The notes beneath the pieces are model-generated. The model did no database searches, was not told the origin of the DNA, and worked only from the letters and a program-made list of their open reading frames with translations. Positions 7,248 through 25,404 of a DNA stretch of 64,000 nucleotides are shown here, piece after piece. Position numbers and translations under genes: made by a program. Origin of the DNA: Fundidesulfovibrio agrisoli. GTDB taxonomy: Bacteria > Desulfobacterota > Desulfovibrionia > Desulfovibrionales > Desulfovibrionaceae. The stretch is taken from the NCBI RefSeq assembly GCF_022808715.1, contig NZ_JAKZKX010000008.1, positions 62,001 to 126,000 on the forward strand, in the 5' to 3' direction. Every line of letters starts with the position of its first letter. Positions within the stretch are counted from its first letter, which is position 1.

Positions 7248-8570
7248 TCAAGCGCCTGCAAGCCATTTTCGCACCGAATTCATCTCGCGCAGCAGGGCCG
7301 GGTAATCGAAGCTTGTGAACCGCCCATCCTCGTAGAGCACGCTTCCCGCCACCATGGTCAGCCGGACGTCGCCCCCGTTGGCCGCGTAGGCCAGGTGCGA
7401 CACCGGGTTGTTGAGCGGCTGCAGGTGCGGCAGGCCGCCGCGCAGGGCGGTCAGGTCCGCCGGGGAGCCGGGAGCCAGCGAGCCAAGCTCCGGCCAGCCC
7501 ACGGCACGGGCCGAATCAACCGTGGCCATGTCCAGCACGGCCTGGGCGGGCAGGACGGTGGGGTCCATCTCGCGCACCTTGCCCAGCAGCGCCGCCGCGC
7601 CCATCTCCGCGAACATGTTCAGGGCGTTGTTGCTGGCCGCGCCGTCGGTGCCCAGGCCCACGGTCACCCCGGCGGCGCGCTGGGCCTTGACCGGGGCCAT
7701 GCCCGAGGCCAGCTTCATGTTGCTGCGCGGATTGTGGGCCACGGCCACGCCTCTGGCGGCCATGAGTTCTATCTCCTCTTGCGTCACGTCCACGGCGTGG
7801 GCCACCAGCAGGCCCGGGTGCGTCAGGTCCAGCTCCTCCAGCACGGCAATGGGCCGCTTGCCGAAGCGCTCCAGGCACAGGGCCGTTTCGGTGGCGGTCT
7901 CGGCCGCGTGCAGGGTCAGGGTCAGGCCGTTGTCCCTGGCGATGCGGTCCAGCCGCAGCAGGGCGGGGTGGTTGGTGGCGTACACCGAGTGGGCCACCAG
8001 GCAGGGCCGCAGCAGCGGGCGGGAGGCGCAGTAGGCGATGAGCTCGTCCACCTTCTCGAAGGCGCGCTCCTGGGTGGGGGTGGAGGGCGTGGGGGTGTCG
8101 AACACGCCCTCGCCCAGCACGGCCCGGATGCCGATGTCCGAGGCGGTGGAGGCCACGGTCCGCTCGAAGAGGTACATGTCGCAGAAGGCCGTGGTGCCGG
8201 AGGCCAGCATCTCGGCGCAGGCCAGGGCGGTGCCCACGGCCACGATCTCCTCGCTCAGGCGGCCTTCGGCGGGCCAGATGTGCTCGGTGAGCCACTCCAT
8301 GAGGGGCAGATCGTCCTCCAGGCCCCGGAACACGGTCATGGGGGCATGGGTGTGGGCGTTGACCAGCCCCGGAAGCACGATGTCGGCCGAGAGGTCCAGC
8401 GTGCGTCCGGCGGGCGTTGCCGCCAGTTCGGCCCAGGGGCCAACGGCGGTGACGAGGCCGGCCTTCACGGCGAGCCCGGCGTCGGTGAGCACCCGCCTTT
8501 GCCCGTCCTGGGTGACGAGGGTTCCGGCGCGGATGAGCGTGTCGCAAGGGGAGAGGGGAGCGGCGTTCAT
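7248..8570 (-). CDS. mtaD: 5-methylthioadenosine/S-adenosylhomocysteine deaminase
   Basis: An amidohydrolase-superfamily enzyme of 440 residues that deaminates S-adenosylhomocysteine and methylthioadenosine (other adenosine derivatives are possible). Metal-binding and catalytic positions are visible: HTH in LVNAHTHAPM, His in TLHAAETATE, His in VAHAVDVTQEE and Asp in GLGTDGAASNN. It is transcribed away from apt-mtnP. Both sides of the locus thus act on methylthioadenosine: MtaD by deamination, MtnP by phosphorolysis. The related guanine and chlorohydrolase families share these motifs, so the substrate is inferred from overall similarity and context. Confidence 0.88.
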   Translation of the reverse strand: MNAAPLSPCDTLIRAGTLVTQDGQRRVLTDAGLAVKAGLVTAVGPWAELAATPAGRTLDLSADIVLPGLVNAHTHAPMTVFRGLEDDLPLMEWLTEHIWPAEGRLSEEIVAVGTALACAEMLASGTTAFCDMYLFERTVASTASDIGIRAVLGEGVFDTPTPSTPTQERAFEKVDELIAYCASRPLLRPCLVAHSVYATNHPALLRLDRIARDNGLTLTLHAAETATETALCLERFGKRPIAVLEELDLTHPGLLVAHAVDVTQEEIELMAARGVAVAHNPRSNMKLASGMAPVKAQRAAGVTVGLGTDGAASNNALNMFAEMGAAALLGKVREMDPTVLPAQAVLDMATVDSARAVGWPELGSLAPGSPADLTALRGGLPHLQPLNNPVSHLAYAANGGDVRLTMVAGSVLYEDGRFTSFDYPALLREMNSVRKWLAGA

Positions 8571-8744
8571 GGACGGGGTGATGCCAGCATGAGCGGCGAA
8601 GTCAAGTCCCGGTTGTCCGGGTGTGATCGTAAGCGCTGCATTCAGCTAATGTTTTCAGGATGATGGCCTGACGCTCCGGCTTGACGCGCTGGGGGTTTGC
8701 GCGTAGTTGACTGAAGGATTTGACACCACTTCAGGAGAGTTCTC

Positions 8745-9260
8745 ATGGATCTGCGCGCCTACATCCGCGATATCCCGGATTTCCCCAAACCGGGCATCCT
8801 CTTCTATGACATCACCCCCCTGCTGGGCCACCCCGCCGCGTTCAAGCACTCCATCGACCTGATGGCGGAACGCTTCCAGGACAGCGGCGCCACCAAGGTC
8901 GCCTGCGCCGAGGCGCGCGGCTTCATCTTCGGAGCGGCCCTGGCCTACAAGATGGATATCGGCTTCGTGCCCGTGCGCAAGCCCGGCAAGCTCCCCTGGA
9001 AGACCACCACCGTCACCTACGACCTGGAGTACGGCACGGACACCCTCTGCATGCACGAAGACGCCTTCCTGCGCGACGAGAAGATCCTGCTCATCGACGA
9101 CGTGCTGGCCACCGGCGGCACGCTCCAGGGCATGCTCAAGCTCATGGCGGCCTGCAACGTGGACATCGTGGGCATCGGCGTGCTGGCGGAACTCGAGTTC
9201 CTGCAGGGCCGCGAGAAGCTTGGCAACATCCCCCTGGAAAGCCTGGTCAAGCTGGGGTAG
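8745..9260 (+). CDS. apt: Adenine phosphoribosyltransferase
   Basis: Converts adenine and PRPP to AMP. The 171-residue size is standard. The PRPP-binding loop is ILLIDDVLATGGT near the middle of the protein, and the N-terminus (LRAYIRDIPDFPKPGILFYDITPLL) is typical of Apt. AGGAGAG lies 5 bases before the ATG. The stop is 2 bases from mtnP, so adenine released by MtnP is recaptured by its co-transcribed partner. A possible promoter with TTGACG at 8681 and a weak -10 (TAGTTG, 8704) precedes it. Confidence 0.96.
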   Translation: MDLRAYIRDIPDFPKPGILFYDITPLLGHPAAFKHSIDLMAERFQDSGATKVACAEARGFIFGAALAYKMDIGFVPVRKPGKLPWKTTTVTYDLEYGTDTLCMHEDAFLRDEKILLIDDVLATGGTLQGMLKLMAACNVDIVGIGVLAELEFLQGREKLGNIPLESLVKLG

Positions 9261-9262
9261 CC

Positions 9263-10012
9263 ATGAAAATTGCCATCATCGGCGGCAGCGGCCTGGACAA
9301 CCCCGACATTCTGGAATCGCCCCGCGACGAGGAGCTGGACACCCCCTACGGCAAGCCCAACTCCACCCTGCGCCACGGCACCATCAAGGGCAGGGACGTG
9401 GTCTTGCTGGCCAGGCACGGCCGAGCCCACACCTGTCCGCCCACCTGGGTGAACTACCGGGCCAACGTCTGGGCGCTCAAGAACGCGGGATGCACACACA
9501 TCCTCTCCACCACGGCCGTGGGCTCCCTCAAGGAGGAGATCAGGCGCGGCGACCTGGTGATCCTGGATCAGTTCATCGACTTCACCCGCCAGCGCGCCAT
9601 CACCTTCCACGAGCGCTTCGAGCCCCACTGCCCGGTGCACACCCCCATGGCGGACCCCTTCGACGAGGGCCTGCGTCAGCGCCTGACGGCGGCATGCGCG
9701 CGCTTCGGCTACGCGCACCACCCCCGTGGGACGGTGGTCACCATCGAAGGCCCGCGCTTCTCCACCCGGGCGGAATCGCACATGTTCCGCGCCTGGGGCG
9801 CCGACGTCATCAACATGAGCGTGGCCACCGAGGCCATCCTGGCGGCCGAGGCGGGCGTGCCCTATGCGGCGGTGGCCATGTCCACCGATTACGACTGCTG
9901 GAAGACCGACGAGGCCCCGGTCACCTGGGAGGACATCCTGCACATCTTCCAGCAGAACGCGAAGAAGGTCACGGACGTGCTCATCGAGGTGATTTCCGGC
10001 CTGGATTCATGA
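9263..10012 (+). CDS. mtnP: S-methyl-5'-thioadenosine phosphorylase
   Basis: Cleaves methylthioadenosine with phosphate to adenine and methylthioribose 1-phosphate. The 249-residue protein opens with the nucleoside phosphorylase motif IAIIGGSGLDNP. It carries the phosphate-binding LLARHGRAHTCPPTWVNYRAN and the purine-binding segment VINMSVATEA, with STDYDCWK following. It sits between apt and a hydrolase gene, whose ATG overlaps its TGA. No mtnA or later methionine-salvage genes are in this window, so the fate of methylthioribose phosphate cannot be judged. Confidence 0.95.
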   Translation: MKIAIIGGSGLDNPDILESPRDEELDTPYGKPNSTLRHGTIKGRDVVLLARHGRAHTCPPTWVNYRANVWALKNAGCTHILSTTAVGSLKEEIRRGDLVILDQFIDFTRQRAITFHERFEPHCPVHTPMADPFDEGLRQRLTAACARFGYAHHPRGTVVTIEGPRFSTRAESHMFRAWGADVINMSVATEAILAAEAGVPYAAVAMSTDYDCWKTDEAPVTWEDILHIFQQNAKKVTDVLIEVISGLDS

Positions 10013-10755
10013 GCGACACAGCCTGCCTGCTGGTCCACGGCTTCGCAGGCAGCCCTTTCGAGATGCGGCCCCTGGCCGACACTTTGGAGGCGGCCGGGGC
10101 GCGCGTGAGCACTCCGGCGCTCCCCGGCCACGCCGCCAGCGTGGCGCAATGGGCCGACACCCGCTGGAACGATTGGCTGGAATGCGTGGAGGCCGAATAC
10201 CTGCGCCTGGCCGCCGAGCACGAGCGGGTGTTCGCGCTGGGTCTCTCCATGGGCGGCAGCCTCTGCCTGGCCCTGGCGCGCAGGCGCCGCCTGGCGGGCG
10301 TGGCCACCATCGCCTCTCCGGTCTACCTCTACCGCTTCCTGCCCCCTTCCAGCTCGGATTGGCGCCTGCCCTTCACCGGGCTGCTGCGCCGCCTGCGCCC
10401 CATCTGGCCCACCAGCCCGGCAAGGCCCGAATCCCGCGCCATCGCCCCGTGGCGGGGATACGAGGGGGCGGTGGCACTGGAGCCGCTCTACAGCTTGATC
10501 CATGGGCTCAAGGAACTGCGCCGCAACCTGGGGCAGATCACCGCGCCGCTGTTGGCCTTGCACGCCCCGGGCGACAGGCAGGTGCCCGTGGGGAATCTGT
10601 GGGAGATCATAAGGGGGGTGCGCTCGCCGCTCAGGCGCGCGGTGCTTCTGGAAATCGAGGAGCGTGTGACCAGCCACCACCTGCTGACAACCCACCGTGA
10701 GGCGGGGCCGGTGGTGAACAGGCTCTGCGCCCGGTTCGTTTCACCGGAGGGCTGA
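10009..10755 (+). CDS. Alpha/beta hydrolase (carboxylesterase-like)
   Basis: A 248-residue serine hydrolase resembling small carboxylesterases and monoacylglycerol lipases. The oxyanion segment LLVHGFAGSPFEMRPLAD starts the protein. The nucleophile is in GLSMGGS (about residue 82), the acid is probably Asp in HAPGDRQVP and the base is a His in TSHHLLTTH. Its ATG overlaps the mtnP stop in an ATGA junction, so the two are probably translationally coupled. The substrate is unknown. It converges with the histidine kinase gene at 10759, leaving only 3 bases between the stops. Confidence 0.85.
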   Translation: MSDTACLLVHGFAGSPFEMRPLADTLEAAGARVSTPALPGHAASVAQWADTRWNDWLECVEAEYLRLAAEHERVFALGLSMGGSLCLALARRRRLAGVATIASPVYLYRFLPPSSSDWRLPFTGLLRRLRPIWPTSPARPESRAIAPWRGYEGAVALEPLYSLIHGLKELRRNLGQITAPLLALHAPGDRQVPVGNLWEIIRGVRSPLRRAVLLEIEERVTSHHLLTTHREAGPVVNRLCARFVSPEG

Positions 10756-23368: not shown

Positions 23369-23999
23369 TGGAAACCTCCCCGCAGTAGGCCGCGAAGTTG
23401 GAGAGCAGCTTGAGGCCCGGACGGCCGGACTTCTCCGGGTGGAACTGGACGGCCCACAACCCGGGGCGGCCGTGCAGGGAGCAGAACTCCATGCCGTAGA
23501 AGGTTGTGCCGAGCACGAACTCGGGGCTGGGCACCGGGTAGTAGCTGTGCACGAAATAGAATTCGGCGGAGGGGTCGATGCCGTCGAAGAGCACGCACTC
23601 CTTGACGAGCTTCACGCTGTTCCAGCCCATGTGCGGCACGCGGATGGGCTGCCCGTCCTCCTCGGTGAGGGCGCGGTTGAACATGGCGCATTCGCCGGGG
23701 ACGATGCCCAGGGCCTGGGTGTCGTTTTCGGCCGAGTAGTCCAGCAGGATCTGGCAGCCCACGCAGATGCCCAGCATGGGCTTGCCCGAGCGGACGATAT
23801 CGCGCAGCACCGCGTCAAGGCCGGTGCTGGTGAGCTCCTCCATGGCCTGGCCCGCGGCGCCCACGCCGGGGAAGATGACGCCCGCGGCGGCGCGCAGGGC
23901 TTCGGGGTCGGCGGTGATGGCGCAGGGTATGCCCAGGTTGTCGAGGGCGCGGCGCACGCTGGTCTGGTTGCCGGCCTTGTAGTCGAGAATGGCGAGCAT
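23358..23999 (-). CDS. hisH: Imidazole glycerol phosphate synthase amidotransferase subunit
   Basis: Glutaminase subunit that feeds ammonia to HisF. The 213-residue class I amidotransferase has the nucleophile elbow [13 protein letters not shown] (the Cys before VGCQ replaces the more usual GxCLGMQ form). Its His and Glu are in [10 protein letters not shown]. The N-terminus [14 protein letters not shown] is typical of HisH. It is the first gene of a hisH-hisF pair. Confidence 0.95.
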
Positions 24000-24090
24000 G
24001 GTGTCCTCCGTGGGCGGTTGCTAGTAGAATTTCCGGCGGGAGGCAAGGCCCCCTCGCAGTTCCGCGCGGGCGGCCGGATTGTCCAGCCGG

Positions 24091-24119
24091 TTGATGCGCC
24101 GGGCAAAGAGCCGTATAGG
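24091..24119 (+). promoter_or_regulatory. Possible promoter of the saposin-like gene
   Basis: TTGATG (24091-24096), 17 bases, TATAGG (24114-24119), giving a leader of about 70 bases before the ATG at 24196. The fit is reasonable but not perfect. Confidence 0.45.
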
Positions 24120-24195
24120 CGGCTGTCCCGGCGTCGATCGGGCGCATCGGAACAATAAAGAGGCGGCCTCGCGCCGCATTTTGGAGACTGACAGC

Positions 24196-24516
24196 ATGAA
24201 ATTTCTTCGGATCACCTTTTTGACGGCTTTGCTCGCGGGCCTCATGTTTTCCAATTCCCTGGCCCAGGGCGGCGACTACATGGAATGCGTGGCCTGCCAG
24301 ATGGTGCTGCGCCTGGTGGAGGCCTCGGCGGCCGACGCAAAGGACATCACCGTGGACGCAACGCGCCAGTGCTCCCTGCTTCCCGCGGCGGACCGCGAGG
24401 CCTGCGTGAAGTTCTACTCCGCCATGGGGCCCAAGTTCATAAACGCCCTCAAGAACAGGCGCGCCAAGGGCGAAAGCGTGGAGAGCATCTGCAGGAGTAT
24501 GGGCTATTGCCAGTAA
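24196..24516 (+). CDS. Secreted saposin-B-type (SapB) domain protein
   Basis: A 106-residue protein with a signal peptide (MKFLRITFLTALLAGLMFSN, cleavage probably near SLA-Q). The mature part has exactly six cysteines at 31, 34, 59, 70, 99 and 105. The spacing is C-x2-C-x24-C-x10-C-x28-C-x5-C, the saposin/NK-lysin pattern in which C1-C6, C2-C5 and C3-C4 form disulfides. A proline follows the third cysteine region (LLP), as in saposins, and the regions between are amphipathic. Saposins bind or extract lipids and some lyse membranes; the role here is unknown. The start has GGAG 9 bases upstream, while longer in-frame starts lack a signal peptide. The gene has no operon partner. Confidence 0.78.
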   Translation: MKFLRITFLTALLAGLMFSNSLAQGGDYMECVACQMVLRLVEASAADAKDITVDATRQCSLLPAADREACVKFYSAMGPKFINALKNRRAKGESVESICRSMGYCQ

Positions 24517-24723
24517 TTCCAGTGGGCTGGGCTTGCATTTTCGGACGCCCGGCGATGAGTGTGGCACGTCCTGTTGTGGGCGCTGCCCGGCGTTTGACGA
24601 AGCGCCAACGCAGGGCAGCCGGATGAAACACCGCATGGGTTGCCGTAGCCGACGGCTTGAGGTTGAACGGGCCGGAACGGCGTGTTAGCCTGCGGCAGAA
24701 CCGGAAACCGCCAGGAGGCGCGC

Positions 24724-25404
24724 ATGGTCATTCTTATCGTCATCACTTCGCACGGCACGCTCGGAGAAACCGGCCACAAGACCGGCTACTGGCTGGAGGA
24801 ACTGGCCGCGCCCTACATGGCATTCAAGGCTGCGGGCGCGGAGATCGTGCTGGCCTCGCCCATGGGCGGCAAGCCCCCCGTGGACCCCAGGAGCACCGAG
24901 GAAGCCTCCCTGACCCCGGCCTGCCGCAAATTCCTCAAGGACCGCGAGGCCCAGGCAGCCCTTGCCGACACCCTCCCGCTGGCTGCGGTGCGCGCCTCGG
25001 ACTACGACGCCGTGTTCTACCCCGGCGGGCACGGCCCCCTGTGGGATCTGGCCGTCGACGACGATTCAATCGCCCTCATCGAGGAAATGTTCGACTCCGG
25101 CAGGGTGGTTGCCGCTGTGTGCCACGGCCCGGCCGTGCTGCGCGACGCCCGAAAGGCCGACGGCCAGCCGCTGGTGGCCGGTTTGAAGCTGACGGGCTTC
25201 ACAAACGCCGAGGAGCAGGCCGTAGGCCTCACGGCTGTCGTCCCCTTCAGCCTTGAGGACGAACTCCGGGCCAAGGGGGGCCTGTTCGAGCAAGGAGATA
25301 ACTTCCAGCCGCACGCCGTGGTCTCGGGAAAACTGGTCACGGGGCAGAACCCTGCGTCCTCCGAGGCGGTGGCCAAAGAGATCCTGAAACTTCTGCGCAG
25401 GTGA
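24724..25404 (+). CDS. DJ-1/PfpI family protein (Hsp31-like)
   Basis: A 226-residue type 1 glutamine amidotransferase-like protein. The nucleophile elbow is AVCHGPAVL with Cys133, and a conserved Glu lies in GYWLEELAAPY. The layout (GHKTGYWLEE, PGGHGPLWDL, SLEDELRAKGG) is that of Hsp31/Hsp32-type class III glyoxalases and putative deglycases. These detoxify methylglyoxal without cofactors; the exact activity is inferred. AGGAGG lies 6 bases before the ATG at 24724. A terminator follows. Confidence 0.88.
   Translation: MVILIVITSHGTLGETGHKTGYWLEELAAPYMAFKAAGAEIVLASPMGGKPPVDPRSTEEASLTPACRKFLKDREAQAALADTLPLAAVRASDYDAVFYPGGHGPLWDLAVDDDSIALIEEMFDSGRVVAAVCHGPAVLRDARKADGQPLVAGLKLTGFTNAEEQAVGLTAVVPFSLEDELRAKGGLFEQGDNFQPHAVVSGKLVTGQNPASSEAVAKEILKLLRR

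Follow-up and report, generated by a model that had tools for sequence, protein, structure and literature searches.

Introduction

Lipid binding is a property common to most characterised saposin-fold proteins. The saposins change between closed and open forms, both of which appear among PDB titles, and prosaposin is organised as a multi-domain precursor. The cysteines of human saposin C are spaced x2, x27, x10, x24, x5. Lysis is represented by NK-lysin, which is strongly basic; lytic saposins of the NK-lysin/granulysin type carry a strong net positive charge, and the pH switch of amoebapore depends on histidine. In AOAH, LPS is deacylated by a subunit that is a GDSL-motif lipase, and the saposin-like subunit works alongside it. 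As for bacteria, domain databases hold a few entries with SapB signatures.

According to PMC11542183, a saposin domain has four to five helices, held together in most cases by three disulfides. A 2017 review (PMC5507252) names ten lipid-transfer superfamilies that have not been found in prokaryotes, saposin being one of them; it also relates that the TULIPs, once thought to be absent from prokaryotes, were later found there. Because saposins are on that list, a bacterial saposin-like protein would fill a stated gap. Among the matches listed in a search restricted to the open-access literature, no paper dealt with a six-cysteine saposin from bacteria. One article (PMC3551896) claims to have detected genes for human surfactant proteins in two bacteria by PCR; we do not accept it as a bacterial saposin, given that its authors themselves state no agreement with those genomes. 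Leaderless and circular bacteriocins with a saposin-like fold are known (PMC6072434), and they lack cysteines.

Here we describe a gene in a 64,000-nucleotide stretch of DNA from the sulfate-reducing bacterium Fundidesulfovibrio agrisoli (hereafter, the window) whose product resembles these proteins. It shares the order of its six cysteines with saposins C and D (human and mouse prosaposin products), and three of the five spacings (x2, x10, x5) are those of saposin C. The remaining two differ, being x24 and x28 where saposin C has x27 and x24. Further, the window protein is bacterial, comprises one domain and has about 20% identity, whereas prosaposin has several domains. When searched singly against the PDB, the window protein and one homolog (L004) both match the small subunit of AOAH best, with all six cysteines aligned; unlike AOAH, which has a GDSL-type hydrolase, the window protein has none fused or adjacent to it (its neighbours, named by eye, are hisH and a PfpI/DJ-1-like gene). 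The saposin-fold bacteriocins are likewise bacterial and belong to a helical, membrane-active fold class. In contrast to them, the window protein has six cysteines and a leader that resembles a signal peptide, and no bacteriocin cassette was seen beside its gene.

The gene and its chromosomal site

The gene occupies 24196..24516 (+), stop codon included, and is supported by its open reading frame, its homologs and the PDB matches of the window protein, its relatives and their profile. Translation from the ATG at 24196 gives a protein of 106 residues, MKFLRITF...GYCQ. A likely ribosome-binding site, GGAG, was recognised by eye at 24183..24186 (+), 9 bases 5' of the ATG; it is also carried by the homolog L002, which is 83% identical to the window protein. 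The first 23 residues (24196..24264, +) resemble a signal peptide, with a K/R start, a hydrophobic stretch and S-L-A before Q24, and all eight homologs have an N-terminus of this kind. These assignments were made by eye without a predictor, and export of the protein by the Sec route is only an inference from them. The remaining 83 residues (24265..24513, +) constitute the mature domain.

The initial annotation had credited the gene with its own likely promoter. We could not substantiate this: no sigma-70-type promoter was found upstream, where the gap to hisH is 196 bases. An alignment of the seven genus homologs, inspected by eye, likewise revealed no shared upstream motif beyond the closest pair. 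The GC content of the gene is 61% (GC3 85%) and that of the window 66%; we see no sign of recent foreign origin in the base composition. An antisense open reading frame of 273 aa (window 23815-24636, -) spans the entire gene. The + frame is favoured as the coding one, as it is conserved and its dN/dS is below 1.

The gene seems to stand alone. Its site in the six other genomes of the genus is the same as in the window: it is divergent from hisH-hisF, and a sigma-54-type regulator and iorB-iorA lie further on (all names assigned by eye). The conserved chromosomal position in 7/7 genus genomes excludes eukaryotic contamination. Downstream of the gene in the window is a PfpI/DJ-1-like gene (24682-25404, +), present at the same place in four of the seven genus genomes, the window's included. 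In genome G002 (locus L012, 6883-8296), an ECF-sigma-like gene and a PAS-like sensor gene, again named by eye, separate the saposin-like gene from the sigma-54-type regulator; in the window, neither was observed next to the gene.

The one carrier from another genus, G028, presents a different setting. There (L015, around 8006-10096), the saposin-like gene does not adjoin hisH and is found between a divergent metallophosphoesterase-like gene and a downstream hemerythrin-like gene, both identified by eye. The HisF of G028 is 79% identical to that of the window, and full-length matches in other genomes of the same family range from 73 to 84%. Because its value falls inside this range, HisF does not mark G028 as a close outgroup. 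We found no partner gene that accompanies the gene both in the genus and in G028, and neither site has a conserved operon partner that would point to a lipid pathway.

Homologs, distribution and selection

Homologs are present in 8 of 59 relatives when the genome itself is counted, namely in 7/7 listed genus genomes and in G028, with one match per genome in all eight carriers. Their identity to the window protein ranges from 48 to 83%. Broader searches added none that we accept. At the family level, 10/288 genomes matched at E 0.01, and two of these rows were judged to be chance, leaving 8/288; at the level of the order, 13/348 genomes matched, five by chance in our judgement. An even sample of the phylum (395 genomes) returned only the genome itself and one chance row. 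A collection of genome contigs gave no match to the single sequence and two loci (G006 and G028) with the profile. No homolog was found in viral contigs or in plasmids. Thus, within what was searched, the distribution is narrow: one genus and one outlier. This narrowness leaves the origin of the family undecided between transfer and divergence beyond detection.

The rows beyond the eight homologs were dismissed after we read their frames, again naming the genes by eye. They include an epimerase-like gene (L016), AtpG-like genes (L017 and L024-L026, with L017 and L024 being one gene) and, further, L027, L028 (TrmFO-like), L051, and L031 with L032 (TPR-like). A loose version of the cysteine pattern occurs in 6 of the 40 loci L016-L017, L024-L028 and L031-L063, in no case at the matched place.

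The mature parts were compared by the Nei-Gojobori method, for which synonymous changes are partly saturated. The dN/dS ratio is 0.25-0.76 in the 13 pairs that involve L007 or L008 and 0.08-0.29 in the 15 that involve neither; it is 0.09 for the window protein and its closest homolog, and lower than 1 in all 28 pairs. On the strength of the homologs, the invariant residues and these ratios, the open reading frame is a real gene.

The cysteine signature

The initial annotation described exactly six cysteines in 106 residues, spaced x2, x24, x10, x28, x5, the third preceding LLP. All of this is borne out, the third cysteine standing in the sequence CSLLP. The cysteines are Cys31 (24286..24288), Cys34 (24295..24297), Cys59 (24370..24372), Cys70 (24403..24405), Cys99 (24490..24492) and Cys105 (24508..24510), all on the + strand. 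It had also been proposed that homologs with unconserved cysteines would refute the saposin reading; each of the six is invariant in all eight homologs found. The order C-x2-C ... C-x10-C ... C-x5-C is met in every one of them, with spacings of x2, x23-24, x10, x28 and x5. In total, 28 columns are invariant in 8/8 homologs, that is, the six cysteines and 22 other residues. Three of the eight have an extra cysteine in the leader.

Chance is ruled out as the origin of this spacing. When the mature protein (83 residues) was shuffled 500,000 times, only 3 of the resulting sequences reproduced a tight saposin-like arrangement (x2, 22-30, 10, 22-30, 5, with the tight gaps exact), and 205 met a loose version.

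Sequence similarity to saposins

Three of the eight members were compared singly with the PDB, up to E 10. The window protein had one match, the saposin-like small subunit of AOAH (E 0.15). All three matches of L004 belong to the saposin family (AOAH twice and one saposin D; best E 0.021), and all five of L008 are saposin D entries (best E 0.048). The family profile retrieved five matches, each a prosaposin product, and a profile of the mature part seven, of which six are saposins and the other a UBA domain (E 1.1). By comparison, three shuffled controls with the cysteines held in place gave 0, 0 and 9 matches, and none retrieved a saposin; the nine are all light chains of antibodies (best E 0.56). 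The saposin reading first offered from the sequence alone thus gains support from searches that favour saposins where the controls do not.

Nonetheless, no PDB sequence match to a saposin reaches E 0.001, and the searches are not fully independent, because the homologs used are related to each other. The evidence at this level is an agreement of several weak matches with no single strong one.

The Pfam results are of the same kind. The Saposin model PF20825 matches L004 (residues 8-83, E 0.00098) and L005 (residues 8-82, E 0.0014), in both cases across the mature domain, with scores of 19.6 and 19.1 bits versus a curated cut-off of 27; the other six members, including the window protein, have no match to it. 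None of the eight has SapB_1 or SapB_2 among its listed matches. Formal Pfam membership, by SapB_1, SapB_2 or PF20825 above its cut-off, is not met. Genome-wide, SapB_1 gave a row at E 0.1 in 21 of 348 genomes and PF20825 in 12 of 285, none above cut-off in either case. The misses of PF20825 in these genomes carry little weight, since the same search missed all of the true homologs. Rows from PHROGs (best E 0.013, one member, no function) and from NCBIfam (best E 0.0088, ArfC_N, one member) were taken as chance.

Predicted structure

Two template-free AlphaFold models were built from eight-sequence alignments. The first, of the window protein (AlphaFold2), is all-helical, with a mean pLDDT of 71.3 and a pTM of 0.52. 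Its predicted helices span mature residues 2-21 (24268..24327), 32-37 (24358..24375), 41-67 (24385..24465) and 72-79 (24478..24501), all on the + strand; the third is a long helix that contains a PKF motif invariant in the alignment. In a Foldseek comparison with the PDB, saposin-fold proteins fill rows 1-26 of 33, headed by saposin C (TM 0.69, E 0.11). VIA-align places the model with the closed forms of saposins C and D, at Z 10.4 and 9.8; the higher value is that of saposin C (rmsd 2.0, 75 aligned). Rows 1-20 of its best 30 are saposin-like, down to Z 4.7, and the next row has a Z of 4.5.

The second model, of L008 (the most divergent homolog, 54% identical to the window protein), is all-helical as well (pLDDT 83.8, pTM 0.62). 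Saposin-family proteins make up 17 of its 24 Foldseek rows, with saposin B, in its open form, at the head. Rows 1-18 of the best 34 from VIA-align belong to the same family; the top match is again saposin B (Z 6.8), the N-domain of surfactant protein B is close behind (Z 5.9), and the first row of another kind has a Z of 3.7. Both of these are matched in the open form, whereas the window protein is modelled closed, and against saposin C, the best match of the first model, the second attains a Z of only 2.4.

The prediction of a closed form for the window protein and an open one for L008 recalls the known change of saposins between the two, yet it may be prediction noise. The confidence of both models is moderate, and all of their Foldseek matches fall short of E 0.001. 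Several open-form saposin rows in Foldseek have an rmsd above 7 with either model, those of the first above 10, and VIA-align calls the score range of the second model common for helical proteins. A search of BFVD with the second model had as its best row a prosaposin-like protein of Orpheovirus (E 0.71), to which we give no weight.

A fold that was not an all-helical saposin bundle had been named in advance as grounds for rejecting the assignment; no such result was obtained, and saposins top the lists for both models. The accompanying claim of amphipathic helices fared poorly. When four helices in each of two homologs were compared with shuffles, the whole-helix hydrophobic moment was clearly above them in only one of the eight predicted helices. 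Taking the sequence matches and the models together, we consider a saposin-like fold very likely, with the reservation that the fold and its two forms are predictions.

Possible functions

Our preferred reading, held with modest confidence, is that the gene encodes a stand-alone, disulfide-stapled lipid-binding protein of the saposin type that is periplasmic or exported; its lipid binding and its disulfides are inferred. After putative Sec-dependent export, four or five helices would be stapled by three disulfides in the saposin-like pairing, Cys1-6, 2-5 and 3-4. The protein would then act, either periplasmically or outside, as a small clamshell that binds lipid and is soluble in its closed state. 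On opening, it would take up acyl chains, those of lipid A or of a membrane lipid, between its helices, and the bound lipid might be carried, or presented to another envelope protein. Which lipid or partner is involved can at this stage only be supposed.

A saposin-like fold need not handle lipid. The protein could instead serve the envelope structurally or by binding other proteins, or be the partner of a periplasmic enzyme; a saposin-like chain can belong to an enzyme, as in AOAH, and the invariant polar residues E30, Q35, D54, D66, K80, K91 and E93 could form a protein-binding face. Against such a role, no partner gene is shared between the locus in the genus and that in G028, and binding of lipid is what most characterised proteins of this fold do. 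We regard it as unlikely, while keeping it in view.

A lytic role against competitors or predators, after the manner of NK-lysin, amoebapore or the bacteriocins, seems less likely still. NK-lysin, granulysin and caenopore-5 do occur in the structural lists as members of the same fold class, and the saposin-like bacteriocins reported in PMC6072434 provide a bacterial precedent. However, the net charge is -2 to +1 in all eight members, so the strong net positive charge of the NK-lysin/granulysin type is not met, and in seven of the eight the mature part has no histidine, which precludes an amoebapore-like pH switch there. The gene is a single copy in the eight carriers, at one site throughout the genus, and no neighbouring gene resembles, by eye, one for immunity or dedicated export. 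Charge, the single conserved copy and the lack of a shared immunity gene make lysis the less likely function, and the data favour lipid binding, itself inferred, over it. Finally, a six-cysteine periplasmic metal-binding or thiol redox protein with a merely convergent likeness to saposins is very improbable: the CxxC at the start, the failure to match DsbB or VKOR in the genome, a sulfide-rich habitat (inferred from the lineage) and a weak row to NuBaID_C in one of eight members (E 0.15) could be cited for it, but all three cysteine-fixed shuffles lose the saposin match, which is thus carried by non-cysteine residues, the alignments with saposin D or AOAH take in CS-LP, F-x5-P and the C-terminal C-x5-C region (saposin D sharing the CS-LP at the third cysteine and the P in helix 3), and no metal-binding or thioredoxin family was matched above chance level.

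The lipid-binding reading includes disulfides, which may be hard to keep in a lineage that, by inference, probably makes sulfide. A DSBA domain is encoded in this genome (G000:C51:132117-132554, -), in a protein of 358 aa (locus L065:1465-2538, -) about 6 kb past the end of the window; two of the eight carriers have no DSBA match. The DsbB and VKOR models each gave no match in this genome, and Pfam VKOR does not match the 358-aa protein. By eye, that protein has an N-terminal membrane region with C-x6-C and CVFC and resembles a VKOR-DsbA fusion. Given a DSBA protein with a VKOR-like region, the unmatched DsbB and VKOR and the two carriers without DSBA, the disulfides are plausible, and they and their pairing remain inferences.

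If lipid binding is true, the saposin fold works in the Gram-negative envelope, the protein offers a small saposin model free of lysosomes, and it becomes possible to test whether the family arose by transfer or from common ancestry. We further put forward, tentatively and with slightly more doubt than conviction, that these proteins are the founding family of true six-cysteine bacterial saposins, being disulfide-stapled periplasmic lipid carriers of a Desulfovibrionaceae genus that switch between closed and open forms on membranes and that arose by old gene transfer or shared ancestry. Were this so, a lipid-transfer fold held to be eukaryotic would extend to Gram-negative envelopes.

The mode of anchoring may vary within the family. 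The leaders of two of the eight homologs, L003 and L006, contain a lipobox-like LTAC or IVAC; these two might be lipoproteins, and the other homologs not.
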